Positions 16,691-35,897 of a stretch of DNA of 64,000 bases are shown in pieces (position 1 is the first letter of the stretch; every line of letters starts with the position of its first letter). Both the position numbers and the translations under genes were made by a program. Origin of the DNA: Acidobacteriaceae bacterium (GTDB taxonomy: Bacteria > Acidobacteriota > Terriglobia > Terriglobales > Acidobacteriaceae); NCBI GenBank assembly GCA_027452245.1, contig DAIDGW010000080.1, forward strand, positions 1-64,000, read 5' to 3'. The notes below the pieces were generated by a model. That model was not told the origin of the DNA, ran no database searches, and saw only the letters and a list, made by a program, of their open reading frames with translations.

Positions 16691-17776
16691 ATGGACAAAA
16701 AGCGAGTCATCATCAGCGCGGTAATCTTCCTGATCCTTGCTACTCTGGTTTACCTGCAATATCGCCACTGGCAGACGTTTGATTGGTCAACCTTCTGGAG
16801 CCAGACCAGCCACGTGAACTGGTGGCGCGTGTTGTTCGGAGTCGCGCTGATCTATTTCGCCTACGGACTGCGGGCGCTTCGCTGGAAGATTTTTCTGAAG
16901 CCCGTGCGGCCGCAGGCCCGATCCATCGATCTCGTGTCTCCCACGATGATTGGGTTCGCGGGGTTGGCGCTACTGGGGCGCGCCGGAGAACCGATCCGGC
17001 CCTATCTGATTGCCCGACGCGAGAATCTCTCGGTTTCCTCTCAACTTGCGGCTTGGGCGGTGGAACGCATCTTCGATGTGGGTGCCTTTACAGTGCTAAT
17101 GGCTCTCGCCGTCTTTCGCGAGGGAGGACTGTATTCCATTCCTGAACCGAGCTGGTACAAAGATCTGCAGCGGGGGGTTCTGGGGCTCATTGGATTAGTC
17201 GCAATTATTGCGCTCGCCGCCATCATCATTAATCGCAAAGGTGAAGCCGTAGCTCAGTGGGTAGAAAAGGAATTTGGACACCTGTCGGAGAATCTCGGGC
17301 ACCGGATTGCCGCGTGGATTCGCGAATTTGGAACCGGACTGCACACAATTGACAGCCCGATGTCATTCGTGTGGCTCTCGGTGGTGTCGATCGGAATGTG
17401 GTACGTGGTTGCGCTGGCGTACATTCAGGTCACACTGTCGTATGGTGCTGCAGCGCTGGAAATTCCTTTATTGCAGATATTGATCCTGATGGGGTCGAGC
17501 ATGCTGGGTTCCATGCTGCAACTGCCGGCGGTGGGTGGAGGCTCCCAACTGGCTACGATAAAAACGCTGACCAGTTTGTTTGATGTGCCGCCGGAAATGG
17601 CCGTGAGTTGCGGGATTCTGCTTTGGCTGGTTACTTTCGCGGCCGTCGTGCCCGTCGGCCTGGTGCTGGCGCATCGCGAGAGGCTGTCATTGCGAAGACT
17701 TTCAGAAGAGAGCCATCGTGCGGAAGAGGAAGTGATCCAGAGTTCCCATGCGCCGGAATCCCAGAATCGAACTTAG
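16691..17776 (+). CDS. flippase-like integral membrane protein (LPG synthase TM region / UPF0104)
   Basis: A 361-residue membrane protein with eight or so helices, of the lysylphosphatidylglycerol-synthase transmembrane-region family. Recognisable parts include the GFAGLALLGRAGEPIRPYLI loop and the AVERIFDVGAF motif early on, and the LQLPAVGGGSQLATIKTL glycine-rich segment late. The soluble synthetase domain of MprF is absent, so this is a stand-alone flippase-like protein, perhaps for a lipid or hopanoid-type substrate. The ATG at 16691 is preferred to an earlier in-frame start because the protein then opens with a short basic stretch before helix 1. Its stop overlaps the stop of the facing regulator gene. 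Confidence 0.85.
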   Translation: MDKKRVIISAVIFLILATLVYLQYRHWQTFDWSTFWSQTSHVNWWRVLFGVALIYFAYGLRALRWKIFLKPVRPQARSIDLVSPTMIGFAGLALLGRAGEPIRPYLIARRENLSVSSQLAAWAVERIFDVGAFTVLMALAVFREGGLYSIPEPSWYKDLQRGVLGLIGLVAIIALAAIIINRKGEAVAQWVEKEFGHLSENLGHRIAAWIREFGTGLHTIDSPMSFVWLSVVSIGMWYVVALAYIQVTLSYGAAALEIPLLQILILMGSSMLGSMLQLPAVGGGSQLATIKTLTSLFDVPPEMAVSCGILLWLVTFAAVVPVGLVLAHRERLSLRRLSEESHRAEEEVIQSSHAPESQNRT

Positions 17777-19569
17777 GAGGCCGGAAACTCCCAACCTTCC
17801 TCTTTCATTTTCTTGTTGGTCCAGTTCTGCAATTGCTCGAAAACGGCGGGTTCAATCACGACGAAGCGAACACCGACACGTCCTTCATCTCCGACCCAGA
17901 CAATCCTGCCTTTGGCTCCGAACTCACCCCCCGCTTCTGGTAAGCCGAAGCTGAGATCGAGCAGACCGGAAAAGCGTAGAGGATCTTTTACCCCGTGAAG
18001 GCCCATGCCTCCGGTGCTCAGGTTGACTCCTTGCGCAAGAATTTCGTCTCCCTTTGCATTTCGAACCCTCACCGGAACCTGCACGCGAGCTCGGAAGAAT
18101 TTCTGCTGCTCAAGGCTGATGTAGCCAAGTGAGCCGGACGCCTCGCCTTGCGGCAAGTTAATTTTATATTCCTTTAGTTTGCGGCTGAGCGTTCGGCGTG
18201 AGATACCGAGCTGATCGGCGGCCATCCCGCGGTGCCCTCCGGTACGCTCCAGCGCTTTCAGGATCATCTGCTCTTCCATGCTTTCCAGATTGCTGACCGG
18301 GAGCGAAGCGGTTTGCCGCATGGCAATCGGTTCACGCTTCAGCGCAGCGCCGATGACGTCCGCCGCAATGGCTTTATCTGTCGACTCCATGGCTACTTTG
18401 GCAACCAGATTCCGCAGTTCGCGGATGTTTCCTGGCCACGAGTAGGAGAGCAGCGTGGAGATTGCTCCCGCAGAAAAATGCTTGAGGGGCGATTTCAGCT
18501 TGAGGAAGTGTTCCGCCAGAGCCACGATGTCTTCTGCACGCTCCCGCAAGGCGGGAACGCGCAGTTGAAATTGTCCAAGCCGGTGAAAAAGATCCTCGCG
18601 GAAACGACCTTCCTTCACGGCGGCCTCAAGATCCTGATTGGTAGCTGCGACAATTCGCACGTCCACCCGAATCTTGCGGTGACCGCCGAGGCGGTAAAAA
18701 GGCTGTCCATCAAGCACGCGCAGTAATTTCACCTGCGTGTGCAATTCCAGTTCGCCAATTTCATCCAGAAACAGGGTTCCCTTGTCGGCAAGTTCAAACA
18801 GACCGGGCTTGGAAACATCCGCGCCGCTGAACGCTCCCTTTTCATATCCAAAAAGCTCGCTCTCAACCAGATTCTCAGGAAGAGCAGCGCAATTGATATC
18901 AACCCACGTGCGTCCGCGACGGTGGGAAGATTCGTGAATCGTGCGCGCGATGAGCTCTTTTCCGGTTCCCGTTTCACCCGTGATCAGGACAGTTTCGGTA
19001 TGGCCGGCAACACGGTCCACCAGTCCCATGAAGCGGTGCATGAGAGGACTGGCCAGAACGAATTGTGTGCCGTCGATCTCACGGGCGACGAAGGGACCGG
19101 ATTGAGCATTTTCTTGTGGCCCTTCGGAACCCGTGCCAACTGTCGTGTCGGGCAGGATGAGCACGGCGAATCCCGCAGACGCCCCCGATGCATCCGACAG
19201 GCGTGTGACAACAAGGTTTACGCGGAGGATCGCGTCATTGCTTGTGGAGTAGCAGAGCCGTTCCTCACAGGAGCCTTGCCGATCTGCCGTACTGAGAAGG
19301 GTGTCCTGGAGTTGTTGACGATCGGTCTTGCGCTTCAAGCCTTCGCGAAAAAAGATGCTGGAGAGCGCCTGCCCTGAAAGAGTCGCCGGACTGTGCTGCA
19401 ACATTCTGGCGCAGGCAGGGGTAGATGCCCCAATAATTCCTCGCGGGTCCGTGAAAAAAGCTGCGATCTCGCCATTTGCCGGAAAAGATGCGGCCGCAGG
19501 CGTGTCCTTCGCGGGAGTGAAAGCTGACAGGGACACCTTCTGCTCCGAGTTGGGCGAAGAGGCTGACAT
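17773..19569 (-). CDS. sigma-54-dependent activator with PAS, AAA+, Fis HTH and C-terminal PilZ domain
   Basis: A 598-residue enhancer-binding protein. A PAS-like sensor lies at about 30-140. The AAA+ ATPase (about 165-400) has Walker A GETGTGKE, the sigma-54 contact loop as GAFSGA (a common variant of GAFTGA), Walker [10 protein letters not shown] and the R-finger region. A Fis-type HTH follows (about 430-480, [22 protein letters not shown]). After that a PilZ domain (about 495-590) is appended; its second motif NLSTGG fits D/N-x-S-x-x-G, but the RxxxR half is degenerate (KFFRAR). PilZ suggests c-di-GMP control. Placing it after the HTH is unusual. There is no phospho-receiver domain. Confidence 0.93.
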
Positions 19570-19644
19570 GGATCCGAGGGTGCTTAGCGAGCTTCAGACC
19601 TCCGTTGAATTCTAAGCAGGTCCGAGGCTGAGCGGATGTAACGA

Positions 19645-19719
19645 AAGTAACCGGGGTGATGCAATGACTCTGATGACTGAGGGTTGGCAGAAACAGGATT
19701 CCGCTGCCCGCGGTTACTT
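19645..19719. other. potential structured leader RNA or operator region
   Basis: A 9-bp arm AAGTAACCG (19645-19653) is exactly complementary to CGGTTACTT (19711-19719). Inside lies a second stem, GGCAG (19686-19690) with CTGCC (19704-19708). It sits in the 285-base gap between the divergent activator and HD-GYP genes. No known riboswitch consensus was recognised. TTACTTCAGTAA (19714-19725) overlaps its right arm. Confidence 0.3.
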
Positions 19720-19854
19720 CAGTAAGCTACTGCGACCGTTTTCATTCTCCTAGGATGGGGAAAGCTCGGAGAAGTGTGCAGTGCAGGGCTGATTAGGGTA
19801 CCAGGGCGGCCCTGCCCGTGGTCTGCACGCTTGGGCCGCATCCTGTAAGTGCGG

Positions 19855-22329
19855 ATGAAAAGGGTGACTGAAGAACTGTCGCTGCAAACAAAGCTATTTG
19901 TTGGCTTTATGGCGCTGACCGGCGTCATGTCGCTGATTTTCGGGTTTTCTCACTGGCAGGCGACGGACCTTGCTCGCTTCATTTGCTACCTCGCAGTCGC
20001 CATTCTCGCCTCAGGATTGAAAGTTCAGTTGCCGGGTATTGATGGCACGATGTCAGTAAATTTCCTGTTCATCCTGCTCGGCGTAATGGAACTGACGTTA
20101 CCCGAAACGCTAATCATCGGGTGCACCGCAACCCTGGTACAAAGCATCTGGCAGGCGCGGAAGCGGCTCGATCCGGTAAAGATATTCTTCAACGTGGTCG
20201 GCATGATGGCGACCGCGTCAGCGCTCACATACCTCAGCTATCACTGGCTTCTTTCCCGGTACAGCGGCAATAAGCCCATCCTTCTGATGGTAGCGGCTCT
20301 GGTCTTTTTCTTTGCCAATACGATGCCGATCTCGGTCGTGATTGCGTTGACCGAAGGAAAATCAACGCGGAAGGTCTGGTCGGAATGCTATTTCTGGTCC
20401 TTCCCGTATTACCTGGTTGGCGCCGCTGCAGTTGGGCTGGTGGGAATCATCAACCGGCAAGCGGGATGGCAGACCTCGCTGCTCGTACTTCCTCTCATTT
20501 ACTGGGTGTACCGCTCATATCGCATGTATCTAGGGCGCCTCGAAGCAGAAAAGGAGCGCGTGGAGATCGAGAAACGGCACGTCGAAGAGATCGCTTCGCT
20601 AAACATGCGGACCATTGAAGCTTTGGCGCTCGCCATCGAGGCAAAGGATCACACCACGCATACGCATTTGCAGCGGGTCCGAACCTACGCGGTCGAAGTC
20701 GCGAAAGAACTGAATCTGCCGGAGAGCGAAATTGAAGCGCTTCGGGCGGCGGCTCTATTGCACGACATCGGGAAACTTGCCGTTCCTGAACAAATCATCA
20801 ATAAGCCAGGAAAGTTAACGCCGGAAGAATTCGAAAAAATGAAGGTGCATCCGATTGTGGGGGCGGAAATTCTCGATCGCGTGGCATTTCCTTACCCCGT
20901 CGCACCCATTGTGAGATCGCACCACGAGCGATGGGATGGATCAGGCTATCCCGAAGGTTTGGTTGGAGAGGAAATCCCGATTGGAGCTCGCATTCTCGCC
21001 ACCGTGGATTGCCTGGACGCTTTGGCATCCCACCGCCAGTATCGCCAGGCTTTGCCTCTACATGCAGCGATGGAGAAAGTAAAGGAGCAGTCGGGAACGT
21101 GGTTTGATCCCAAAGTTGTAGAAATTCTGGAGCGTCGCTATGTCGATCTCGAACGCATGGCCTTGATGCATGAAGAGACAATTGGCCCGCACATGCTCTC
21201 GAAAGCAGTTCGGGTAGAACGTGGATTAGCGCCTGCCGCTGGGTTTGAAATGGCTTCGGAAACTTCCAACACGGTGGACAGCGGCGATTTCCTGACATCA
21301 ATTGCGTCCGCCCGGCAGGAAGCGCAAACCATGTTCGAACTCAGCCAGGACCTGGGCGTCTCATTGAGCTTGAGCGAAACTCTGTCGGTGCTGTCGATGC
21401 GGCTGCGGAAGATGATCCCGTACGATTCGATAGCGGTATTTGTAAACCGAAATGGCTGGTTGTTGCCGGAACTGGTCAGCGGCGAGAACTTCCGTGTGCT
21501 GTCTGCGCTTCGGGTTCGCGTGGGTGAAGGACTTTGCGGATGGGTCGCGGAGAACTGCAAACCGATTGTGAATGGGGGCCCTGAACTCGAGGCTGGGTAC
21601 GTGATTGATCCCGATCGTAACGCGATTTTGCGCTCGGCGCTGGCCGTTCCCCTGGAAGGACTGAATGGCGTGGTTGGCGTGCTGGCTATGTATCAGACCA
21701 ATCATGACGCTTTCACTCCGGACCACCTGAGAATTCTTCTGGCCGTGGCTTCCAAGGTCGCACTCTCGATTGAGAATGCCCTGAAATATCAGCAGGCGGA
21801 GAGCTCCGCCACGACGGACTATCTCACCGGACTTCCCAACGCACGTTCGCTCTTCGTACATCTGGCGCAAGAAGTCGTGCGTTCGCGCCGCATGAAAACA
21901 TCCCTCGCAGTGATGGTATGCGACATCGATGGCTTCAAGCAGATCAATGACTCTTATGGACACCTGGAAGGCGACAAATTGTTGCGGGAGTTCAGCACAC
22001 GGCTCAAAGAAATCTGCCGAGGCTACGACTATATCGCCAGGATGGGCGGAGATGAGTTTGTCATTACAGCACCGGGACTGACGCCGGAAGCGGCCGCGGA
22101 AAAGGCGGATCAACTGAATCGCGCAGCGATTGACTCCTGTCGCGCGGTGCTTGGCCGGGACTTGATCACGCTGAGCGTGGGAACGTCCTTCTGCCCAGAC
22201 GATGGCTTTGACGTGGAACGGCTATTGGCGGACGCCGATCGCCGAATGTACTCGATCAAGCAAGTACATCACGACAAATCTGCCGAACAGCCACTGGAAA
22301 CGAAAGCGCACGGAGCATCACTCTCGTAG
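19855..22329 (+). CDS. membrane sensor protein with HD-GYP, GAF and GGDEF domains
   Basis: An 824-residue c-di-GMP turnover protein. Six or seven N-terminal helices (about 10-210) form a sensor module that includes LPGIDGTMSVNFLFIL. A coiled linker leads to an HD-GYP phosphodiesterase domain with HDIGK and HHERWDGSGYP intact. A GAF domain follows (about 455-620), then a GGDEF cyclase domain with GGDEF intact and an inhibitory RGYD site five residues before it. Having both activities complete is notable. A GTG six bases earlier is an alternative start. Its stop lies 8 bases before the ABC permease gene. The sensor module is homologous to the free-standing protein at 28573. Confidence 0.92.
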   Translation: MKRVTEELSLQTKLFVGFMALTGVMSLIFGFSHWQATDLARFICYLAVAILASGLKVQLPGIDGTMSVNFLFILLGVMELTLPETLIIGCTATLVQSIWQARKRLDPVKIFFNVVGMMATASALTYLSYHWLLSRYSGNKPILLMVAALVFFFANTMPISVVIALTEGKSTRKVWSECYFWSFPYYLVGAAAVGLVGIINRQAGWQTSLLVLPLIYWVYRSYRMYLGRLEAEKERVEIEKRHVEEIASLNMRTIEALALAIEAKDHTTHTHLQRVRTYAVEVAKELNLPESEIEALRAAALLHDIGKLAVPEQIINKPGKLTPEEFEKMKVHPIVGAEILDRVAFPYPVAPIVRSHHERWDGSGYPEGLVGEEIPIGARILATVDCLDALASHRQYRQALPLHAAMEKVKEQSGTWFDPKVVEILERRYVDLERMALMHEETIGPHMLSKAVRVERGLAPAAGFEMASETSNTVDSGDFLTSIASARQEAQTMFELSQDLGVSLSLSETLSVLSMRLRKMIPYDSIAVFVNRNGWLLPELVSGENFRVLSALRVRVGEGLCGWVAENCKPIVNGGPELEAGYVIDPDRNAILRSALAVPLEGLNGVVGVLAMYQTNHDAFTPDHLRILLAVASKVALSIENALKYQQAESSATTDYLTGLPNARSLFVHLAQEVVRSRRMKTSLAVMVCDIDGFKQINDSYGHLEGDKLLREFSTRLKEICRGYDYIARMGGDEFVITAPGLTPEAAAEKADQLNRAAIDSCRAVLGRDLITLSVGTSFCPDDGFDVERLLADADRRMYSIKQVHHDKSAEQPLETKAHGASLS

Positions 22330-22337
22330 GAAACGCG

Positions 22338-23210
22338 ATGGCCACTCTGGTATGGAGAATCGCACGGCACGGGGTGATCATGCTCACGATCGTACTGCTG
22401 GGCGGCTTCCTTTCCGCTACCTTCATGCGTTTGGCGCCAGGATTCGATGTGGATGAGCGAGAAATGGATCCGCATCTGAATGCGGCGAGCATTCAAGCAG
22501 TGCGCGAAGAGCACACGCAAAACAGAAACATCGTCCGATACTACGCTCAGTCATTAGCCAAGGCCCTGCACGGCGATCTTGGGACCTCGATCTCTCTGGG
22601 CCAACCCGTAGCCGCGCTGCTCAAAGAGAGATTGCCCTTGACTCTGCGACTGGTGGCGCTCGGTCTCGGTATGGGCTGGGCGGCCGCCCTAGCCCTGGCA
22701 ATGAGCGCAGCATGCGTCCGGCTCGTAAGTTACGACGTGGCGAGCACGTTGCTGAGTGGACTCTTTTTGTGCATTCCGGCCGCAGTGCTGGCGCTGCTTT
22801 CCGTTCTCTGGAACCTTCCAGGAGCCCTCGCCATCGCCCTGATTGTGTTTCCCCGCGTGTATCGCTATGCCCGGAACCTGCTGTCCAAAGCCTACTCGCT
22901 GCCGCATGTGACGACGGCACGCTGCAAAGGCCTGGGCGAGCTAAGAATTCTGTTCTGGCATGTGATACCGGTCGCGGGTCCGCAGTTACTGGCATTGGCA
23001 GGAGTCTCCGTCAGCATGGCGGTAAGCGCTGCGATCCCGATCGAAGCGTTGTGCGGACTGCCGGGGGTGGGGCAACTCGCATGGCAAGCGGCCCTGTCGC
23101 GGGATCTGCCACTGCTCACGAGCATAGGCGTGCTCATTACGCTCGTAACCTTGTTGGCAAACTCAAGTACCGATGTAATCGGACAAGCCATGGGGAGCCA
23201 GAAAGCATGA
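22338..23210 (+). CDS. ABC transporter permease, dipeptide/oligopeptide type (DppB-like)
   Basis: A 290-residue inner-membrane permease with six helices. The binding-protein-dependent transport motif (EAA loop) appears as TARCKGLGELRILFWHVIPVAGP, and the late IEALCGLPGVGQLAWQAALSRDLPLL is typical of the DppB/OppB group. The N-terminus carries the usual short cytoplasmic start and a periplasmic loop with the EHTQNRNIVRYYAQSL region. It follows the HD-GYP gene by 8 bases and overlaps the next permease by ATGA. Confidence 0.93.
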   Translation: MATLVWRIARHGVIMLTIVLLGGFLSATFMRLAPGFDVDEREMDPHLNAASIQAVREEHTQNRNIVRYYAQSLAKALHGDLGTSISLGQPVAALLKERLPLTLRLVALGLGMGWAAALALAMSAACVRLVSYDVASTLLSGLFLCIPAAVLALLSVLWNLPGALAIALIVFPRVYRYARNLLSKAYSLPHVTTARCKGLGELRILFWHVIPVAGPQLLALAGVSVSMAVSAAIPIEALCGLPGVGQLAWQAALSRDLPLLTSIGVLITLVTLLANSSTDVIGQAMGSQKA

Positions 23211-24016
23211 ATTTCTGGCAGAAACTGGCTGGCTGCATCTTGCTGCTGGTCGTTTGTTTATCGTTAGCGGCCGGGTGGCTCGCGCCAGCCGGATATGCGT
23301 ATCAGGATCGGGAGAATGCCGGGGCTCCGCCTTCGCACCAGCACTGGCTGGGTACGGACGATCTCGGTCGCGACCGGTTCGCGCGAATTCTGTATGGCAC
23401 CAGAATTTCGCTGCTGTTGGCTCCGGCAGCGGCGCTGATTTCTACGCTGCTGGCGGCAATGATTGGAGGGTTCGCGGGATACGCGGGAGGAATCTGGCAG
23501 CGTGCGGCCACGGCAATTACGGATCTTTTTCTTTCATTGCCATGGTTATTTCTGCTGATTGCGGTCCGGGCATTGATGCCGCTCAATATTTCGCCGCTGG
23601 AATCCGTCACGGTGACGTTTTCGCTGCTCGGCCTGTTGGGATGGACGGCAGCAGCCCGGGTATTGTGTGCGGCCGGAGCTTCACTGCGGGATTCAGATTT
23701 CGTCTGCCAGGCTCGTGCGTCGGGAGTGAGAAATTCGCGGCTCTTCTGGATTCATGTGCTACCCAACATGGCGCCAGTGCTGCTGGCACAATTCTGGATC
23801 TCAATACCGGTGTTTATCTTGAGCGAGGCGAACTTGGGAATCTTGGGGCTGGGAGTCGCCGAACCATTGCCCTCGTGGGGGAGTCTGTTGCGGGAATTGG
23901 AAGGCATGATCTCGATTGGGGATGAACCCTGGAAGCTGGCGCCATTGGCGCTGCTGGTCGTGGTGGTCACATGTTTTCAAATTGTGCTGTCAAATCAACA
24001 GGAGGTGGCCGCATGA
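23207..24016 (+). CDS. ABC transporter permease, dipeptide/oligopeptide type (DppC-like)
   Basis: A 269-residue partner permease. The HWLGTDDLGRDRFARILYGTRISL block near residue 45 is diagnostic of DppC/OppC. The EAA loop reads CQARASGVRNSRLFWIHVLPN, and the C-terminus has GLGVAEPLPSWGSLL. The ATG at 23207 overlaps the previous stop, and a much longer in-frame extension upstream is rejected as the shadow of the other permease. Its own stop overlaps the next start. Confidence 0.93.
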   Translation: MNFWQKLAGCILLLVVCLSLAAGWLAPAGYAYQDRENAGAPPSHQHWLGTDDLGRDRFARILYGTRISLLLAPAAALISTLLAAMIGGFAGYAGGIWQRAATAITDLFLSLPWLFLLIAVRALMPLNISPLESVTVTFSLLGLLGWTAAARVLCAAGASLRDSDFVCQARASGVRNSRLFWIHVLPNMAPVLLAQFWISIPVFILSEANLGILGLGVAEPLPSWGSLLRELEGMISIGDEPWKLAPLALLVVVVTCFQIVLSNQQEVAA

Positions 24017-25656
24017 CGCGCTGCCAAAATTTCTCATTCCGGGTATTGCTTGGCGCCGCGTTGGGCCTCTCCGCAGCCATTTCCGCATTGGCGCAAGGGG
24101 GCGGACAGCTACGTTTTTGCCTGCACACCGAGCCCAAGACGTTCGATCCGCTGCAAGTTGAGGATGACGCTTCCGTTTCTATCCGCTATCTGACTGGCGG
24201 GGTTCTGATTCGTGTAAACCGGCAAACCCAAGCTTTGGAACCTGAACTGGCGGAATCGTGGAAGGTTTCCAAGGATGCGCGACAGATCACGTTCAAGCTG
24301 CGTTCCGGTGTCCGCTTCTCCGACGGAAGTCCTTTCACGGCCGAAGATGTGGCCTTCACGATGCAGCGATTAATGGACCCGGCATTGCACTCGCCTACCG
24401 GTGATGCATTCCGAACCGGGTCTGGGAAGGTTCAAACCCGAATCACTTCGCCCACTCAGATGACGATCGTGTTCCCGGCGCCCGTCGCGGGACTGGACCG
24501 GATGTTTGATCAGGTCGCAATAGTTTCTTCGCACGCGTTCCGCCAGGAAAGTGCCGTGAACGGACCTTTTCTTGGGCCATTCGTCGTGGCCGAGTACAAG
24601 CCGGGGTCAAGCGTGCTGCTGCGCCGAAATGCATATTACTGGAAGACTGACGCACAGGGCCGCAAGCTACCCTACCTCGATTCGATTCTTCTCGACATCC
24701 AACCCAATCGCGACATTGAAATGCTTCACTTCCGGCGAGGCGAAGACGAGCTGATCAACGCGCTCGACAGCGATTACTTCGACAAGCTGGCTTCGATGTC
24801 GCCAGAACTCGTGCATGACGCAGGAGCATCTCTCGATAGCGAACAGATGTGGTTCAATCAAGTGGCCAAGGCCCCGATTCCGGATTACAAAAAGGCCTGG
24901 TTTCGCTCGACGGCTTTTCGACGGGCGATTTCAGAAGCCATCAATCGGGAAGACCTCTGCCGCGTGGTATTTCACGGGCATGCGCAACCAGCTTTGGGTC
25001 CATTCTCCCCGGCCAACAAATTTTGGTTCGACAGCAAGCTGAAGCCGCAAACATACATGCCTGATGCAGCATTGAAGTCCTTGCAGGCAGAAGGCTTCCA
25101 TCTGGACAATGGGACCCTCAAAGACTCTCACGGAAATGATGTGGCCTTCTCGCTGATCACGAACGCGGGCAATAAATACCGTGAGGGCATGGCCGTCCTC
25201 ATTCAGCAGGACCTGCAGAAAATTGGGGTTCACGTCAACGTAGTGACGCTTGATTTTCCTTCTCTGATCGAGCGTATGACACAAACTTTCGACTACGAAG
25301 CCATCCTATTGGGACTGACGAACGTTGATCTGGATCCGAATGCCGAGATGAATGTGTGGTTGAGTTCCGCCGAGAATCATCAATGGAACCCGCAACAGAA
25401 AACGCCGGAAACGGCATGGGAAGCGGAGATAGATCGACTGATGCGCGCACAAGCTTCGGCGAGCGACCCCAGGAAGCGCAAAGAATATTTTGATCGTGTC
25501 CAGGAGATCGTGGTGGAACAACAGCCATTCATTTTCCTGATTAACAAAGATGCATTGTCGGCTTCTTCATCGCTCGTGAAGGGCGAGAACCCGGTCATCC
25601 TTCATCCGCAGACGTTCTGGAATGCGGAACGTCTCACAATTGCAAAGGCAAACTGA
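24013..25656 (+). CDS. ABC transporter peptide-binding protein (SBP family 5)
   Basis: A 547-residue periplasmic solute-binding protein. The start at 24013 overlaps the permease stop and has GGAGGTGG upstream. A signal peptide ends near ALAQGGG, with no lipobox cysteine at the cleavage site, so it may be soluble and not a lipoprotein. The family-5 signature lies in LEPELAESWKVSKDARQITFKLR and in RSGVRFSDGSPFTAEDV. The C-terminal lobe contains the usual VEQQPFIFLINKD. Members bind di- or oligopeptides, nickel or sugars; the permease type favours peptides. Confidence 0.93.
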   Translation: MTRCQNFSFRVLLGAALGLSAAISALAQGGGQLRFCLHTEPKTFDPLQVEDDASVSIRYLTGGVLIRVNRQTQALEPELAESWKVSKDARQITFKLRSGVRFSDGSPFTAEDVAFTMQRLMDPALHSPTGDAFRTGSGKVQTRITSPTQMTIVFPAPVAGLDRMFDQVAIVSSHAFRQESAVNGPFLGPFVVAEYKPGSSVLLRRNAYYWKTDAQGRKLPYLDSILLDIQPNRDIEMLHFRRGEDELINALDSDYFDKLASMSPELVHDAGASLDSEQMWFNQVAKAPIPDYKKAWFRSTAFRRAISEAINREDLCRVVFHGHAQPALGPFSPANKFWFDSKLKPQTYMPDAALKSLQAEGFHLDNGTLKDSHGNDVAFSLITNAGNKYREGMAVLIQQDLQKIGVHVNVVTLDFPSLIERMTQTFDYEAILLGLTNVDLDPNAEMNVWLSSAENHQWNPQQKTPETAWEAEIDRLMRAQASASDPRKRKEYFDRVQEIVVEQQPFIFLINKDALSASSSLVKGENPVILHPQTFWNAERLTIAKAN

Positions 25657-26486
25657 TGGCGGAGGGCGCGGACATTCTGCTGTCGGCGAATGTATCGATA
25701 CGCTATGGCGGCAAGCCGGTGCTGAACGGCTTGAACCTGGAAGTGCATCGGGGGGAAATTCTGGGGTTGGTAGGCCAGAGCGGCTCGGGGAAGAGCACTC
25801 TGGCGATGGCCATCCTGGGATTGCTGAATCGCAATCGCGCTCAAGTGGAAGGCAGCATCCGCTTTGCGGAGGTGGACCTGCTCCATCTGAAAGAGCGCCA
25901 GATGCGTGAATTGCGCGGGGGGCAGTTGGCTCTCGTGCTACAGAGTCCCTTGTCCTCATTGAATCCTGCGCTGAAGATCCGCACTCAACTGCGAGAAGCA
26001 TGGCGAACCCATGCGTCGGGCAGTTCCGCGGATCGCGATAATGCGATTCGAAAAGTGCTCGAGAACGTGAGTTTGCCTTGCAGTGAAGAGTTCCTGAAGA
26101 AATATCCTTCGCAGATGAGCGTCGGGCAGGCACAAAGGGTACTGATTGCGATGGCCGTACTGCACCGTCCATCACTATTGATCGCTGACGAAGCCACCAG
26201 CGCTCTGGATGTAATCACACAATCAGAGATTCTCGCTCTCTTCTCGAAGTTGAGCCGAGAGACGGGAATGGCGATGCTCTACATCTCGCACGATCTCGCC
26301 TCTGTAGCGGGCGTCTGTCACCGCGTTGCCATTTTGCATGAGGGGTGCATTGTTGAATGCGCGCCGACCGAGCAGATTTTTGCCGGTCCTCAACATGAAT
26401 ACACCCGGCGACTGATGGCAGCCCTGCCACCCATCTTCAACCGGGCGCCGGTCAGTATCGGGCGCAAGGCCGCTGCGTCGATCTGA
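25656..26486 (+). CDS. ABC transporter ATP-binding protein (DppD-like)
   Basis: A 276-residue ATPase. Walker A is GQSGSGKST, the Q-loop is in VLQSPLSSLNPA, the signature is MSVGQAQR (a variant of LSGGQ), Walker B is LLIADEATSALD and the H-loop is ISHD. The C-terminal ATPIFAGP-type oligopeptide extension is present. The ATG shares one base with the preceding stop (TGATG). Dpp/Opp importers normally need two different ATPases; only this one is encoded here and the next gene is a protease, so it either works as a homodimer or borrows a partner elsewhere. Confidence 0.92.
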   Translation: MAEGADILLSANVSIRYGGKPVLNGLNLEVHRGEILGLVGQSGSGKSTLAMAILGLLNRNRAQVEGSIRFAEVDLLHLKERQMRELRGGQLALVLQSPLSSLNPALKIRTQLREAWRTHASGSSADRDNAIRKVLENVSLPCSEEFLKKYPSQMSVGQAQRVLIAMAVLHRPSLLIADEATSALDVITQSEILALFSKLSRETGMAMLYISHDLASVAGVCHRVAILHEGCIVECAPTEQIFAGPQHEYTRRLMAALPPIFNRAPVSIGRKAAASI

Positions 26487-26530
26487 GCCTACACCCTGCC
26501 GCAAAGTCAGCTTCCGGGGGTCCTTAAAGT

Positions 26531-26576
26531 TGGGACATTCTGTCTCGCGCCCAGCGGCGTGGGACAATCTGGCCCA
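26531..26576 (+). promoter_or_regulatory. paired upstream activator sites for a sigma-54 activator (candidate)
   Basis: Two related imperfect palindromes, TGGGACATTCTGTCTC (26531-26546) and TGGGACAATCTGGCCCA (26560-26576), have centres about 30 bases apart (three helical turns). They lie roughly 75-120 bases upstream of a sigma-54 promoter, the usual place for enhancer sites. The match to a specific activator is not known; the PilZ-containing activator at 17773-19569 is a candidate. Confidence 0.55.
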
Positions 26577-26636
26577 ACGCAACCTGCATTTCCAATCGTT
26601 TACTCATTTATTTTCAGTAACTTACGTTTGAGGAAT

Positions 26637-26652
26637 TGGCCGGAGGCGTGCA
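26637..26652 (+). promoter_or_regulatory. sigma-54 (-24/-12) promoter of the subtilase gene
   Basis: TGGCCGGAGGCGTGCA fits the sigma-54 pattern, with GG at 26638-26639, GC at 26650-26651 and exactly ten bases between. TGGC and TGCA match the consensus ends. Transcription would start near 26664, giving a leader of about 40 bases to the ATG at 26706. Confidence 0.65.
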
Positions 26653-26705
26653 CTTGTCTACGCGTTACACGCACGATCTTTCCCCCAACCGAAAGGGTGA
26701 GATTT

Positions 26706-28535
26706 ATGGTGCTTACAAAGCAAGCTCAAAAGCGAAAAGGACACGGCGAACGTCATAGCGCCGCATGGGGCAAGCGTATAGCGATCGTAGCGCTGCTATT
26801 GGTATCAGATCTGGCGTTCGCACAGACGGCAATTTACGCCGGCGGGTCTAGCTACAGAATGGCCAGCAATCAGCGCTTATCGTCGGAATTGCAACACCTC
26901 TTCGCAAAGCGCGGGACCAGAAACGCAGCTCAGACCGTTAAGGTCATCGTGCAATATCGGATGGTTCCGACTTCAGCCCACTATGCGCGGATGCAAAACC
27001 TCGGCGGACGGGTTAATGCCAAGTTGCACTTCATCAAGAGTGCGGCATTTACCATTCCGGTGAGCAAACTGGCGTCGCTGGAATCTGATCCGGACATTTT
27101 GTCGGTGACCATTGATCATCCGCTGAAGGGCAGCGATGATTACACGGACGCGGCGGCCAATGTCAGCGCTGCGTGGAACTCAGGCTTTGACGGAACGGGT
27201 GTGACGGTCGCCGTGATCGACAGCGGCATCAATGACAGCCATCCTGATCTATGGGACGCCGCCATGACGCATTCCCGCGTTTTATATCATCAGGATTTCA
27301 CGGGCACCCCGACAACGAATTCCAGCGGTGCGCAATACGATCTCTATGGTCACGGCACGCATGTCGCCGGAATTATCGGCGGCAACGGGCATGACTCGGC
27401 AGGACGTTATGCCGGGGTTGCTCCCAATGTGAATTTCGTCGATCTTCGTGCGCTGGACCAGAACGGATCAGGTACCGACAGCACGGTCATCAACGCTATT
27501 CAGGCTGCGATCTCTCTCAAGAATGTCTATAACATCAAGCTGATCAACCTGTCTCTCGGACGCGGTATTCCTGAGCCCTATGCGCAGGATCCACTCTGCC
27601 AGGCAGTGGAAGCCGCATGGAACAATGGAATCATGGTAGTCGTGGCCGCCGGCAACTACGGACGTCTCGGTATCAACGGCAGCAATGGTTACGGCACGGT
27701 GACAGCTCCTGGCAACGACCCTTATGTACTGACCGTCGGCGCGATGAAGGACATGGAGACATACACGCGGGCTGACGATCAGCTAGCCAGCTACAGCTCG
27801 AAGGGCCCCACGACCTATGACCACATCGTCAAGCCGGATATCATGGCGATGGGCAATCACGTGGTTTCGCTCGCGGCTCCAGGAGCAACGTTGGAGGCGC
27901 ATTATTCGGACGATCTCGTCGAAGGTACAGATGGCGGAAACGAATATTTCACCCTCAGCGGAACGAGCATGGCGACTCCGGTCGTAACCGGTGTCGCGGC
28001 TCTGGTGCTGCAACAGAACGGCCAATTGACTCCGGACCAGGTAAAGGCCCGGCTGATGAAGACGGCATATAAGCTTTCGTTGATTTCGACTTCAGCGTAT
28101 GTACCCCATTTGCTGATGAACTTCCTCGAGTTCTATGACTTATTTGCGATGGGTGCAGGATACGTGGACGCCCAGGCAGCTCTTACGAACACCGACCTGG
28201 CGCCTCCCACGGTCGGTGCAGCTCTGTCTCCGACGGCTGTTTACAACAGCTCAAACAACACCATCTCTTTCTTGAATGGCAATTCCAAGATATTGCCAGG
28301 CTCGGTTGTCTGGGGCTCGTCCGTTGTTTGGGGGAGTTCGGTGGTGTGGGGAGCAAATGTGAGCGGCACCTCAGTTGTCTGGGGTAGTTCCCTGCCCTGG
28401 AATAGTCCTCTAACCAGCGCATTCAGCGTTGTTTGGGGGTCGAGCACCACGACGTCAGCTACGAGTGTCGTCTGGGGAGCGTCTGAGTTAAGCGCAACCA
28501 GTGCATTTTCCGATGCTGGAGATGACGAGCAATAA
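26706..28535 (+). CDS. secreted subtilisin-like S8 serine protease with VVWG-repeat tail
   Basis: A 609-residue exported protease. A basic N-terminus and hydrophobic stretch ending FAQTA form the signal, and an I9-like pro-region (about 60-145) follows. The catalytic domain has Asp in VAVIDSGIND, His in GHGTHVAGI and Ser in LSGTSMATPVVTG. The tail (about 540-609) is a low-complexity repeat built on SVVWGSS and variants, found to my knowledge mainly in subtilases of this phylum. The ATG at 26706 has a GGGTGAG site. A longer open frame upstream covers the promoter and is rejected. Expression is probably sigma-54 dependent. The substrate is unknown. Confidence 0.92.
   Translation: MVLTKQAQKRKGHGERHSAAWGKRIAIVALLLVSDLAFAQTAIYAGGSSYRMASNQRLSSELQHLFAKRGTRNAAQTVKVIVQYRMVPTSAHYARMQNLGGRVNAKLHFIKSAAFTIPVSKLASLESDPDILSVTIDHPLKGSDDYTDAAANVSAAWNSGFDGTGVTVAVIDSGINDSHPDLWDAAMTHSRVLYHQDFTGTPTTNSSGAQYDLYGHGTHVAGIIGGNGHDSAGRYAGVAPNVNFVDLRALDQNGSGTDSTVINAIQAAISLKNVYNIKLINLSLGRGIPEPYAQDPLCQAVEAAWNNGIMVVVAAGNYGRLGINGSNGYGTVTAPGNDPYVLTVGAMKDMETYTRADDQLASYSSKGPTTYDHIVKPDIMAMGNHVVSLAAPGATLEAHYSDDLVEGTDGGNEYFTLSGTSMATPVVTGVAALVLQQNGQLTPDQVKARLMKTAYKLSLISTSAYVPHLLMNFLEFYDLFAMGAGYVDAQAALTNTDLAPPTVGAALSPTAVYNSSNNTISFLNGNSKILPGSVVWGSSVVWGSSVVWGANVSGTSVVWGSSLPWNSPLTSAFSVVWGSSTTTSATSVVWGASELSATSAFSDAGDDEQ
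28302..28490 (+). repeat. repeats encoding the SVVWG motif
   Basis: Six VVWG copies, with variants of S-V-V-W-G-S-S, spaced irregularly by Ser/Thr-rich linkers; a seventh unit is degenerate (LPWNSP). The first three copies are in direct tandem. The repeats make up the C-terminal tail of the subtilase. Confidence 0.85.
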
Positions 28536-28572
28536 CCGTGTGTCGATGAGCGCAACCAGAAAGGAGGAACCA

Positions 28573-29298
28573 ATGGCGAATCGCACACGGCAAACTCAAC
28601 TCTTCGTCGGCGCAATGGCAATTGCAGGCTTGGCTGGAACAGCCTATGCAGCTGCCATCGATCATGCCCTGCACATACCTTACGCACTGGCCCTATTGGG
28701 AATGGCGGCGCTGACCTCCAGAATGAAGGCAAAGTTGCCGGGCATTGAAGGCAACATGTCCGTCAATCTGCCGTTCCTGCTCATGGCAGTGGTTAACTTG
28801 AGTGCGGCTGAAGCAATCACCATCGCCGCTCTCTCAACCGCAGTCCAAACCTGGCCCAAGAAGAACGCGAAGCTAAAGCCTCAGCAGATGCTGTTTAACG
28901 TGAGCATGTTGGCGCTTGCTACGAGCATAGCTAGCCTGGTTTGGCATTCGGGAGCATTCAGCAAAACGTCGGCAATCGCCGATCCCGTGATGCTGGCTAC
29001 TGCAACGGCGATGTTTTTCTTCGGACAAACTGCGCCCGTGGCAGGAGTCATTGCCGTCAGTGAGGGTACGAACTTACCCCGCACCTGGTGGAGCATCGCG
29101 CAACTGTCGTTTCCGTATTTCGTACTGAGTGCCGGGCTGACGACTATGACCGATATCGTCAGTCATCACACAGGGTGGCCGATTGCAATGCTGGCCTTCC
29201 CGGTAATGTATGCAGTCCACCGGTCGTATCGGCTTTACTTCGGGACGGTGTCCGCAAGCACCGCACCCTTGGCTCGCGTGGCGGCTGTCGGAAGATAG
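28573..29298 (+). CDS. stand-alone membrane sensor-domain protein
   Basis: A 241-residue protein with about seven predicted helices and no attached output domain. It is clearly related to the N-terminal membrane part of the HD-GYP protein at 19855: both have LPGI-(D/E)-G-x-MSVN, a Q-rich segment followed by FNV, and the final MY-x-VHRSYRLYFG-like end. A perfect AGGAGG site fixes the ATG. It begins 37 bases after the subtilase stop and is likely co-transcribed. Its function is unknown; it may be a receptor that pairs with a separate output protein, or a decoy of the HD-GYP sensor. Confidence 0.8.
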   Translation: MANRTRQTQLFVGAMAIAGLAGTAYAAAIDHALHIPYALALLGMAALTSRMKAKLPGIEGNMSVNLPFLLMAVVNLSAAEAITIAALSTAVQTWPKKNAKLKPQQMLFNVSMLALATSIASLVWHSGAFSKTSAIADPVMLATATAMFFFGQTAPVAGVIAVSEGTNLPRTWWSIAQLSFPYFVLSAGLTTMTDIVSHHTGWPIAMLAFPVMYAVHRSYRLYFGTVSASTAPLARVAAVGR

Positions 29299-32095: not shown

Positions 32096-35000
32096 TTACT
32101 GCACCTTCACCACAACGGATGTAGCTTGATGCATTGCCCCGGAAGTGCCGGTGACCGTCACCGTGTAAGTGCCCCCCGGTGTTCCGTTAGTCGTTGTTGC
32201 CGGCGTGCTGTACCCTCCACAAGCGGTCTGCAGCATGCAACCGGCAGCAATCAAAATGGCAATTCCGATGGCCAGAAGTTTCCTACGATTCGGTTGGGAC
32301 ATTCCTGTTCCTCCCAGGCAGAGACATGGAATCAAAAACGCCAGGAATCCCAGCTTGCCGGTTCCAGATTCGCCTTTCGCAATATGCCGAAGATCAGCTT
32401 GCGAGGACTTGCTGGAAACGTGAAGGGTCGCTGTGCCGACGCCACCTGAAACAGACACTGGAGTCACAGAGCAACTCACCGGTGAACTGACGAGCGGGGT
32501 AACCGCGCAGCTCAGATCAACCATGGAAGGGTTGAAACCGCCCGCGGGGTTAATGGTGATCGTCCATTGTGCCGAACCTCCAGGCTGAATCGTCGTTGAA
32601 CTCAGCGCTTTGGATGAAAGAGCAAAACCGGCAACTGTGACCGATTCAGACAGTACACTTGATGTGCTGCCCGAGTAGTCGTTACTTCCGCCATAGACCG
32701 CGGTAATATGGTGCGATCCTGCCGCCAGGGAAGAAATGGAGAACGTTGCCACTCCATTGGCCAGGCTGGAAGAACCAATCTGCGTTGATCCATCCAGGAA
32801 GCTGATTGTGCCAGTTGGCACTCCCGAGCTGGCCGCGTTAACACTTGCTGTAAGTATGACGTTCTGGCCGACATTCGCCGGATTCGGCGTCGCGGTCAGG
32901 GCCGTTGTGGTAGCTCCGTTCTGTACTACCTGTGTGAGTGCGCTCGACGTGCTCGCGGCGTAATGCGAGTCTCCGCTATAGGACGCGGTTATCGAGTGGG
33001 ATCCGATTGCCAAACTCGAAGTGCTGAGAGTCGCGGTTCCCTGCAACAGGGTTGCTTGCCCGAGTTGGACGGCTCCATCGCTGAAGGTGATAGTCCCAGT
33101 CGGCGCACCTTGGGTTTGCGGGGCGACTGTCGCATTGAGCGTGATCGACTGCCCGAAAGTAGACGGATTCGCCGAGCTGCTGACACCGGTCGTGGTCGGG
33201 ACGATAAAGCCGTCGGAGATGTTGAGTAGAACCGTGACTCCTCCGACCGCAAGATCCGGCCGGCCGTCTCCGTTAAAGTCGGCGGATACCGTGGCTATCC
33301 CGATCGCTCCCAGCGACATTGGAGACTGGAAGGTACCGTCACCATTGCCCAGGAGCAGCACATCGGAAGCGCCGGAAGCGACATCCAGTTTGTGATCTCC
33401 GTTGAAATCGCCAACCACGATTGTTTGCCAGCCCTCGCTTTGCGGCACCAGGGTCGTGAGCGCGGTCTGGAATGTACCGTCGCCATTCCCCAAAAGAACT
33501 GACATCGCGCTGTTCGAACAGTTGTTGCTGGCGCAGCTATTCTCGACAACGATATCCAGCTTTCCATCGCCATTGACATCGGCCGCCTGCAACGCTTCAG
33601 CGCTTTGCCCACCGCTGTTGTAGTTGACTGCCGGTTGGAAGGTCCCATCGCCATTGCCCAAAAGCACGCTGACGATTCCATTCGAACAACTGGAGTTGCT
33701 CTGGCACTCGTTAGCAACGACAATGTCGGGCTTGCCGTCTCCATTCGTGTCCCCCACGGCTACCCCAAGCGCATATGTACCTCCTGAGTTGTAGCTCACC
33801 GCTGACTGGAACGTACCGTCGCCATTTCCCAGCATGACATTTACGGCGCCAGCTGTGCAGTTACTGTCGCCGCATTGCGCGGCGAGAACGATGTCGAGTT
33901 TGTTATCGCCGTTCACATCTGCCAGAACGACCGTTTCCCCGTTGTTGTTCGTAGAGTAGGTCGTCGGAGCTTGAAAAGTTCCGTCTCCGTTGCCTAACAG
34001 CACGCCGACTACACCCTGCGAGCAGTTGCTGCTGGTCGTGCATTGATTGGTTACGACAATGTCCGCCTTGCCATCGCCGTTGACGTCTGCGGCGGCAATC
34101 CAGTACGCGTATTCGCCGCCTGAGGAATAAGTGACCGGCGCCTGGAATGTGCCGTCGCCATTGCTGAGCAGGACGCTTACGGAGCCACCGGTACAAGTCG
34201 TGTCGCCACACTCGTTTGCGATCAGCAGGTCCGGCTTGCCATCCCCGTTTACGTCTGCCACCGCCATTCCATAAGAGTTCCAGCTACCCGTCGGGTAGAT
34301 CACTCCCGCCTGTAGTGTGCCGTCGCCGTATCCCAGCAAAACATTGATCGAGCCCGTGTTGCAGATGAAAGATGTGCCATAACACGAATCTGTCACCAGA
34401 ACATCGGGGTTTCCGTCACCATTGACATCGCCCACCAGAACCGTGGTCAGCGATGGCCCCATCATCGCCATGAAGTCATTTGATCCGGCGGCATAAGCGA
34501 TGCCTGACTGGAAGGTTCCGTCTCCGTTGCCCAGGAGCACGCTGGCCGCATTGCCGCTCTGGCAATTCGAGTTCATTGGGCACTGATTACTGACCACCAC
34601 ATCGAGTTTGCCGTCACGATTAAGATCAGCGAGCGCGAGGGACTGAGCATAGGTTCCACCAGATCCGTACTGGACAGCATTCTGCAAAGTTCCGTCGCCA
34701 TTCCCCAGAAGCACCCCTACCGTCCCATAGCTGCAGTTTGAGGTATTCTCACAACTGTTTGAGACGAGAACATCCGGATGACCGTCGCCATTGACGTCTC
34801 CGATGACAATGGCGGTGCTTTCAATACCAGCAGAGCTGGAATTGATTGCATTTTGGAAAGTGCCATCACCATTACCAAGAAGCACACTGACGATACCGTT
34901 CGAGCAATTTGAATTGCTGACGCACTCATTCACAATCGCGACATCGAGCTTGCCGTCTCCATTGAGATCAGCAACTGCGATGCCTTGAGCTGTCGCTGCT

Positions 35001-35797
35001 CCTGAGCTGTAGTTCACTGCCGATTGGAAAGTTCCATCCCCATTGCCCAGCAAAACACTCAGCACGCCATTCGAGCACGAATTCGTGGAATTGCACTCCT
35101 GAACAACAAGCAGGTCGAGTTTGCCGTCTCCATTTGTGTCTCCAACGGCTACGGCTTTAGCGGTCGGCGCTCCAGTGTTATAGGCGACGGCTGGCTGAAA
35201 GGTTCCATCACCGTTGCCCAACATGACATTCACTACGCCGGAGGAACAACTGCTATTGCAGTAACTTACGGCCACGATGTCGAGCAGTCCATCCCCGTTC
35301 ACGTCGGCCAATGTGACCGCCTGCAGGTCCGTAGCAGTTGAATAACTGACCGGGGCCTGATAAGTTCCGTCGCCGTTCCCCAAGAGAACCGTGATGACTC
35401 CATTGGAGCAGTTGTTTGGCGCGCACTGGCTAGCCATGACCAAGTCCAATTTGCCATCTCCATTGAGATCCCCGGTGGCGGCGGCGATAGTCTGCTGACC
35501 GCCAGATTGAGTGGTAATGGCGGCGGTGAAAATTTGTGTATTCGAAGTCGGTAAACTCGAGAGCATCGGATGCACGTTCTGAGTGTTCCGGGCAGTTGCA
35601 ATTGCCTTCTCTGCCGGAGTTAGTGGCCGCAATGACGCTGGTCCCGGGACATGAAACGAAGACGGGACAACATTGATGGCTTTCAGGTTAGGGCGAGAAG
35701 CTTGGGAGACTTCCTGTCCACGTGCAGTTGCAGGACCGAATCCAAACCCCAGCATCGCCAGAAGTACAGCGACCGACGAGATGACGCGCTTCGACAT
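32096..35797 (-). CDS. large secreted FG-GAP/VCBS repeat protein with Ig-like domains
   Basis: A 1233-residue exported protein. The ATG at 35797, with GGAGA upstream, leads into a signal peptide ending near ATARGQ. From about residue 90 to 790 there are 13 clear repeats of about 50-65 residues, each with an NGDGKxDxV calcium-loop segment and a VLLGNGDGTFQ strand, plus one degenerate copy. Two Ig-like (Big_3-type) domains follow (about 830-1010), then a beta segment, a hydrophobic stretch containing a CGG, and a TYTVTV C-terminal strand. The repeats resemble integrin beta-propeller blades. A surface or adhesion role is inferred. Confidence 0.9.
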   Translation of the reverse strand: MSKRVISSVAVLLAMLGFGFGPATARGQEVSQASRPNLKAINVVPSSFHVPGPASLRPLTPAEKAIATARNTQNVHPMLSSLPTSNTQIFTAAITTQSGGQQTIAAATGDLNGDGKLDLVMASQCAPNNCSNGVITVLLGNGDGTYQAPVSYSTATDLQAVTLADVNGDGLLDIVAVSYCNSSCSSGVVNVMLGNGDGTFQPAVAYNTGAPTAKAVAVGDTNGDGKLDLLVVQECNSTNSCSNGVLSVLLGNGDGTFQSAVNYSSGAATAQGIAVADLNGDGKLDVAIVNECVSNSNCSNGIVSVLLGNGDGTFQNAINSSSAGIESTAIVIGDVNGDGHPDVLVSNSCENTSNCSYGTVGVLLGNGDGTLQNAVQYGSGGTYAQSLALADLNRDGKLDVVVSNQCPMNSNCQSGNAASVLLGNGDGTFQSGIAYAAGSNDFMAMMGPSLTTVLVGDVNGDGNPDVLVTDSCYGTSFICNTGSINVLLGYGDGTLQAGVIYPTGSWNSYGMAVADVNGDGKPDLLIANECGDTTCTGGSVSVLLSNGDGTFQAPVTYSSGGEYAYWIAAADVNGDGKADIVVTNQCTTSSNCSQGVVGVLLGNGDGTFQAPTTYSTNNNGETVVLADVNGDNKLDIVLAAQCGDSNCTAGAVNVMLGNGDGTFQSAVSYNSGGTYALGVAVGDTNGDGKPDIVVANECQSNSSCSNGIVSVLLGNGDGTFQPAVNYNSGGQSAEALQAADVNGDGKLDIVVENSCASNNCSNSAMSVLLGNGDGTFQTALTTLVPQSEGWQTIVVGDFNGDHKLDVASGASDVLLLGNGDGTFQSPMSLGAIGIATVSADFNGDGRPDLAVGGVTVLLNISDGFIVPTTTGVSSSANPSTFGQSITLNATVAPQTQGAPTGTITFSDGAVQLGQATLLQGTATLSTSSLAIGSHSITASYSGDSHYAASTSSALTQVVQNGATTTALTATPNPANVGQNVILTASVNAASSGVPTGTISFLDGSTQIGSSSLANGVATFSISSLAAGSHHITAVYGGSNDYSGSTSSVLSESVTVAGFALSSKALSSTTIQPGGSAQWTITINPAGGFNPSMVDLSCAVTPLVSSPVSCSVTPVSVSGGVGTATLHVSSKSSQADLRHIAKGESGTGKLGFLAFLIPCLCLGGTGMSQPNRRKLLAIGIAILIAAGCMLQTACGGYSTPATTTNGTPGGTYTVTVTGTSGAMHQATSVVVKVQ
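33250..35550 (-). repeat. array of about 13 FG-GAP coding repeats
   Basis: The DNA repeats with a period of roughly 150-195 bases, each unit carrying the code for LLGNGDGTFQ and NGDGKxDxVV. Diverged codons show the array is old and not a recent expansion. It lies within the FG-GAP protein gene. Confidence 0.85.
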
Positions 35798-35897
35798 CGA
35801 ATCTTCTCCGTATTCAAAAATGGAATTTGCTGCGAACGTGCTGTTCACTGCAGAACGGCAGGACAGACCACAACTCAACGTCGAAACTGTCTGAGAT

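Follow-up and report, generated by a model that had tools for sequence, protein, structure and literature searches.

Positions 17773–29298 of a 64,000-nucleotide stretch of DNA from an Acidobacteriaceae bacterium (GenBank assembly GCA_027452245.1, contig DAIDGW010000080.1, positions 1 to 64,000 of the forward strand; here called the window) carry a divergent sigma-54 activator gene, a gene encoding a membrane-bound HD-GYP/GGDEF protein, the genes of a peptide-class importer, the gene for a secreted S8 subtilase and a gene for a free-standing copy of the membrane domain MASE9. Linkage, conservation and a shared promoter type make a single functional module the best account of this gene set, and we give an even chance to the reading that it is a module of the Terriglobia (Acidobacteriota) that couples extracellular proteolysis to cyclic di-GMP (c-di-GMP). 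A link between secreted proteolysis, peptide uptake and c-di-GMP had been proposed in an earlier note on this DNA. Two parts of the locus were absent from that note, namely a tail of SVVWG repeats on the subtilase and the divergently encoded sigma-54 activator, which has HTH_8 and PilZ domains (17773–19569).

The HD-GYP gene (19855–22329, plus strand) encodes a MASE9–HD-GYP–GAF–GGDEF protein (Pfam HD_5, E 8.7e-42; GGDEF, 3.9e-38; GAF_2, 6.5e-13; MASE9, 0.0036, below the cut-off). As described in the earlier note, it ends 8 bases before the ATG of the first importer gene at 22338, and overlapping genes follow as far as the ATPase, all on the plus strand. They encode an OppB/DppB-type permease (22338–23210; BPD_transp_1, 7e-17), an OppC/DppC-type permease (23207–24016; BPD_transp_1, 8.7e-17; Opp4C was the top NCBIfam model among the matches listed, below its cut-off), a family-5 solute-binding protein of the peptide/nickel class (24013–25656; SBP_bac_5, 1.9e-69) and the sole ATPase of the importer (25656–26486; ABC_tran, 4e-28). 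A gap of 219 bases that contains the subtilase promoter separates the ATPase gene from the subtilase gene (26706–28535, plus strand; Peptidase_S8, 3.9e-55), and this confirms the subtilase reported to follow the importer. The signal peptide and pro-region were recognised by eye. The gene for the free MASE9 protein (28573–29298, plus strand; MASE9, 4.7e-7, above the cut-off) starts after a further 37 bases. The in-line genes are probably co-transcribed.

Comparison of the neighbourhood across relatives had been suggested as a check on the proposed link, with lack of conservation counting against it. A set of 101 genomes, 45 of which belong to the genus of the window, was searched with the free MASE9, the binding protein and the subtilase. 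By hand count, 22 of the 45 genus genomes keep all four genes on a single contig in the order HD-GYP, binding protein, subtilase, free MASE9, with the HD-GYP and free MASE9 starts approximately 8.7–10.6 kb apart. The proposed link thus withstood this check. In the other genus genomes the parts were on separate contigs or missing, and at the thresholds applied seven (G001, G026, G027, G028, G031, G034 and G044) gave no match to the free MASE9 and none to the binding protein. When loci were read gene by gene, the whole set was present in L016, L017 and the genus loci L117–L120, L133 and L134. One further locus in the series, L015, was deposited as Candidatus Sulfotelmatobacter, class Terriglobia. 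Loci L014–L017 seem to be the same contigs as others in the count, and hence are not extra evidence.

Beyond the genus, the parts recur together in other families and in other orders, for example as S8, MASE9–HD-GYP–GGDEF and permeases in family f10 (L124, L129). Of 299 genomes searched in the class, 96 encode MASE9–HD-GYP proteins (E up to 1e-70). We examined 80 non-genus loci drawn from about 150 listed rows of a longer list, 60 of them nearly the best-scoring and 20 lower; in 9 of the 80 less than 1 kb of sequence follows the gene, and several genomes contribute two loci. An importer lay directly downstream in 35; 36 had an S8 gene no more than 6 kb away, 35 an activator no more than 3 kb away and 16 a free MASE9. 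Importer and S8 occurred together at 25 loci, importer alone at 10, S8 alone at 11 and neither at 34, a co-occurrence beside MASE9–HD-GYP genes that supports the proposed linkage of proteolysis, uptake and c-di-GMP genes. The Fisher P value (3.8e-5) overstates the case, since the loci are related to one another and most of those with neither come from family f6. The 39 S8 genes within 6 kb were upstream and divergent (24), upstream in line (7), downstream in line (6) or downstream in the opposite orientation (2), so the association appears to have survived rearrangement.

The protease is also associated with MASE9. A free MASE9 gene lay directly behind the S8 gene with at least three WG-type (Trp-Gly) repeat units in all 33 fetched cases, and of 29 loci fetched by the free MASE9 alone 28 contained an S8 gene, the 29th ending at a contig edge. 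A census was also made in 13 genomes chosen for earlier S8, MASE9 or binding-protein hits, a choice that is not random and favours pairs. It covered 72 S8 hits (71 classed for the tail, two split genes being counted twice) and 36 MASE9 genes from a list joined by hand from several searches. There were 20 S8–MASE9 pairs within 5 kb, compared with 0.43 expected at random placement, and 19 of the 36 MASE9 genes had an S8 gene within that distance. MASE9 was near 17 of 25 tailed S8 genes but only 2 of 46 untailed ones, and of these two one has a broken tail and the other is the front piece of a split gene. This contrast, drawn within the chosen genomes, depends less on their choice.

The tail sets the protease apart from other secreted S8 subtilases. 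The window protein resembles them in its S8 domain with catalytic motifs (Pfam) and its signal peptide, and in 67 tailed relatives strict patterns for the D, H and S motifs matched 67, 61 and 50 sequences, respectively. It differs in its C-terminal WG-hexapeptide repeats (28302–28532, plus strand), which comprise six SVVWG units, end in FSDAGDDEQ and are kept in orthologues. The S8 proteins beside MASE9 carry approximately 4 to 14 such hexapeptides of the general form x-x-x-W-G-x at the C-terminus. The window protein repeats the unit SVVWGS and the second tailed subtilase of this genome the unit NALWGS; units seen elsewhere are SAMWGS, SAVWGN, SVIWGN and TALWGK. Many tails contain non-repeat stretches between units. 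Over all pairs of window units, 30 codons were the same, 52 synonymous and 8 non-synonymous. The same residues are thus encoded by different codons, and the tail peptide seems to be kept by selection rather than to reflect a recent duplication. At E 0.01 the tail gave no Pfam match and no NCBIfam match among those listed. Of 199 genomes of the phylum, 3 contained a DNA pattern encoding VVWG units at a spacing of six codons. A WG-tailed subtilase was also seen in another family of the phylum, f52 (L115, G172:C65:25262-27448), where the 16 kb read gave no match to MASE9 or to the importer.

The membrane enzyme carries the catalytic motifs of both of its c-di-GMP domains. The window protein has the motifs HDIGK, HHERWDGSGYP and RGYD-N5-GGDEF and an I-site, as expected of an HD-GYP protein and a diguanylate cyclase. 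Among 69 full-length relatives, HD[IVL]GK was found in 65, the GYP motif and GG[DE]EF in all 69, and the I-site in 60. The importer that follows had been called complete, and this holds for the two permeases and the SBP_bac_5 protein but only in part for the ATPase. Opp-type importers normally consist of two permeases, a binding protein and two ATPases. The window importer shares with the Opp/Dpp/Nik importers two permeases, a family-5 binding protein and an Opp-type ATPase, and differs from them in having a single ATPase gene and an HD-GYP/GGDEF gene at its head. Exactly one ATPase was present in 31 of 34 related loci with the binding protein, and the other three end at a contig edge. Such an importer could function in an Opp-like manner if the ATPase homodimerises. 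The best match of the binding protein among solved structures was the oligopeptide-binding protein AppA (8.8e-31). Among the NCBIfam matches listed for the window proteins, only the general domains TIGR00254 and TIGR00277 exceeded their cut-offs.

The protein encoded behind the subtilase had been taken for a free copy of the membrane domain of the HD-GYP protein, and the two are indeed related (35% identity over 228 columns, E 6e-41). The domain is MASE9 (Pfam PF20972), to which the free protein belongs with 30.4 bits against a cut-off of 24.3, while the N-terminus of the HD-GYP protein scores 17.7 bits, under the cut-off. A structure predicted from eight sequences had a predicted local distance difference test score (pLDDT) of 65.7 and a predicted template modelling score (pTM) of 0.66. 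Foldseek matched this model to S-components of energy-coupling factor (ECF) transporters with a probability of up to 0.99 but with E values of 0.097 or more. After re-alignment with VIA, ranks 1–21 were all membrane components of ECF transporters with Z scores of 11.0–13.9, followed by Lnt at 8.5 and below, though helical models may attain such scores through arrangement alone. The clean break in Z and the single kind of protein favour the S-component match, and the medium confidence of the model cautions against relying on it. The predicted resemblance is to S-components such as ThiT, RibU, FolT and BioY; MASE9 differs from them in having only 5–12% identity, and no ECF module turned up in the loci read, where none was specifically searched for. 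Among the c-di-GMP enzymes with MASE domains, Escherichia coli DgcE (PMC6510439) likewise has a multi-pass membrane domain for input, MASE1. Here, by contrast, the domain is MASE9, it is fused to HD-GYP and GGDEF domains, and it also occurs as a free protein behind a protease. A literature search on MASE9 found no relevant paper.

The sigma-54 promoter proposed for the subtilase gene at first appeared weak, as the match itself (TGGCCGGAGGCGTGCA, 26637–26652, plus strand) is at chance level, with 31 sites in the window, itself included, scoring equally or better. Its position was a different matter. The best sigma-54 match lies at −65 to −86 in 25 of 30 subtilase orthologues of the genus and elsewhere in the other five, and alignment of the 30 upstream regions revealed a −24/−12 element, TTGGC..CGTGCA, behind two conserved palindromes. 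The site gains weight from this conserved position behind the palindromes, and with a conserved GG-N10-GC at −24/−12 it reads as a sigma-54-type promoter. The palindromes (26532–26546 and 26561–26575) are each one mismatch from GGGACA-N3-TGTCCC, which is not an operator known to us, and are 29 bp apart; a pair with the same 29-base spacing precedes the other tailed subtilase of this genome (contig 5). Palindrome pairs and −24/−12 elements were found upstream of subtilase genes and, in other families, of HD-GYP genes.

The specificity of the palindrome was assessed in 2.05 Mb of fetched loci, in which the 400 bases upstream of tailed S8, MASE9–HD-GYP and activator genes make up 3.9% of the bases. 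Of the 40 copies with no more than one mismatch, 35 fell inside these zones; of eight control patterns, seven had none or one copy there and the near variant CGGACA-N3-TGTCCG had 10 of 17. With at most two mismatches the figures were 74 of 153 for the operator, 11 of 72 and 47 of 183 for the enriched controls (a variant with an N5 spacer and CGGACA-N3-TGTCCG, respectively) and between 2 of 155 and 6 of 84 for the remaining six. A −24/−12 element (score at least 12) lay behind 29 of 36 palindromes, compared with 8% in shuffled sequences, and in 27 of the 29 the distance was 74–83 or 99–114 bases. The set distance between a −24/−12 element and paired palindromes is reminiscent of sigma-54 promoters with paired enhancer sites. 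Unlike the activators of such systems, the one in the window gave no Pfam match to a receiver domain at E 0.01. The adjacent activator may bind the palindromes. GAFTGA is the usual motif in sigma-54 activators; the window protein has a GAFSGA loop (Sigma54_activat, 3.4e-66; HTH_8, 1.3e-15; PilZ, 3.4e-11; gene on the minus strand, with AAA+, Fis-type helix-turn-helix and C-terminal PilZ regions), as do 41 of 56 collected activator open reading frames (ORFs).

Three further observations concern operators. In L150, from the genus member G001 that lacks the subtilase, two palindromes spaced by 29 bases (812 and 841) precede the first ATG of the activator gene, as if the activator controls itself. 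An exact copy of the palindrome is present elsewhere in the genome of the window (G000:C128:6707-6723). The gap between the activator and HD-GYP genes (window 19640–19740) contains GTAAC/GTTAC half-sites conserved in the genus, perhaps a second operator.

From these parts a sequence of events can be proposed. The sigma-54 activator would switch on the secreted WG-tailed subtilase. The free MASE9 encoded with it, and the MASE9–HD-GYP–GAF–GGDEF enzymes, would sit in the membrane, where MASE9 may bind a small ligand, given its S-component-like model. The ligand would most likely report proteolysis, as a product peptide, an amino acid or the tail itself, and the HD-GYP/GGDEF enzyme would convert that signal into a change in c-di-GMP. 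The single-ATPase Opp-type importer encoded behind the HD-GYP gene would take up peptides. It is in going from a module to a loop, in which MASE9 would sense what proteolysis yields, c-di-GMP would respond and the importer would carry that product, that we infer most, including the direction of signalling and the peptide cargo.

Several findings weigh against this account. No palindrome was found in the HD-GYP/activator gap of the window with up to four mismatches. With up to two mismatches, none was found before the HD-GYP or activator gene at eight further loci of the genus that hold the full gene set. An operator common to the subtilase and the HD-GYP operon was thus not found in this genus, although G001 has the pair before its activator gene noted above. 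The motifs expected of a c-di-GMP-binding PilZ domain are RxxxR and (D/N)xSxxG; the window PilZ has NLSTGG with QxxxR, the expected arginine being absent. A PilZ-like tail, again with QxxxR, was found in 15 of the 56 activator ORFs and not in the other 41, some of which are cut or of other activator types, and the idea that the activator reads c-di-GMP through PilZ is weakened by both observations. The MASE9 model has a pLDDT of 65.7, and its Z scores could arise from helical arrangement. Locus L014 has the subtilase and free MASE9 with no importer or HD-GYP gene in the 8 kb upstream, a free MASE9 is missing behind 14 tailed S8 proteins whose repeats have V or I, and 8 of the 25 tailed S8 genes in the census are not near MASE9, two of these being on short contigs. 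In family f6, MASE9–HD-GYP genes have the importer next to them in only 10 of 43 loci and S8 within 6 kb in 6 of 43, which indicates that the enzyme does other work too, and the paralogue in the genome of the window (contig 49) has neither importer nor S8 in 13 kb. Finally, the loci are related, so that the P values do not refer to independent events.

A second kind of protease locus bears on the alternatives. Among 13 loci read around paralogues of the binding protein, 10 have a tail-less S8 gene within the stretch covered. In 6 of these 10 the gene directly behind the tail-less S8 encodes an HD-GYP-only protein that has both the HD and the GYP motif, and an importer with two ATPases is complete in two of the six (L146, L153). 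Between the binding protein and S8 are an extracytoplasmic function (ECF)-like sigma factor and a long protein of approximately 970 aa, both recognised by eye. A seventh S8 with an HD-GYP-only gene was found elsewhere (L181), and six of these S8 proteins, included in the tree of S8 cores, form their own clade. Loci of the second kind are L136 (G000:C154:92000-109900), L137–L139, L143, L146, L153 and L181; L136, the copy in the genome of the window, has no HD-GYP-only gene behind S8. Judged by gene order, protease, binding protein and HD-GYP came together in a second form in the class.

Co-location for nutrition, with protease and importer both serving protein scavenging and the HD-GYP protein a general regulator that stands at the operon head by chance, would account for the tail-less S8 genes near binding-protein paralogues at 10 of the 13 loci, 4 of these 10 having no HD-GYP gene, and for the many MASE9–HD-GYP genes with neither an importer nor an S8 neighbour. 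We consider it unlikely, as it leaves unexplained why the same sensor domain, in free form, follows the protease in every fetched case, why MASE9–HD-GYP genes pair with tailed S8 even where the stretch read holds no importer (L097–L103), and why operators are shared. It is also doubtful that MASE9 serves as a membrane dock for the WG tail. In that case the protease would be kept at the cell by its tail, or MASE9 would help to process the tail, and the c-di-GMP enzyme would sense whether the tail is bound. The linkage of tail and MASE9 in the census is in keeping with a dock, as is the finding that repeat position 2 is V or I in 30 of 30 tailed S8 proteins with a free MASE9 but in 14 of 30 without one. 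On a tree of 68 S8 cores, however, there are only 3 to 5 independent pairs of tail type and free MASE9, too few for the association to be more than a hint. Tailed S8 genes also exist with no MASE9 nearby, and the structure predicted for the tailed subtilase from four sequences was unusable (pLDDT 29.9), so nothing structural bears on docking.

The tail may instead carry information. Going by anatomy, the WG-tailed subtilase might be both protease and signal carrier, its locus-specific hexapeptide tail, or pieces of it, being read by the S-component-like MASE9 and imported by the linked importer, such that the cell gauges its own proteolysis through a private peptide and sets c-di-GMP to match; we regard this as quite improbable. 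A tail that is a precursor of tandem hexapeptide signals, which would be released proteolytically and then taken up by the linked importer or sensed by MASE9, seems more improbable still. Units are near-identical within a gene despite their differing codons, the two tailed subtilases that this genome encodes have different units (SVVWGS and NALWGS) and a peptide-class importer adjoins, as such a precursor would predict, but the interruption of many tails by non-repeat stretches does not fit it. The single module linking proteolysis to c-di-GMP thus stands as the account that we prefer. Downstream of the module, on the minus strand (window 32096–35878), there is a gene for a large secreted protein with FG-GAP-like repeats, recognised by eye.

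The earlier note knew of no described system with this gene content, and we found no description of one in the open-licence papers searched; the portion of PMC12316311 seen contains no mention of Acidobacteria. Every enzyme class in the locus is already known, and what is new is their combination, the tail and the connection with MASE9. The module gives MASE9 a testable function and would tie c-di-GMP to protein digestion in widespread soil bacteria that are hard to handle. The subtilase tail and the sigma-54 operator are defined and can be searched for elsewhere.

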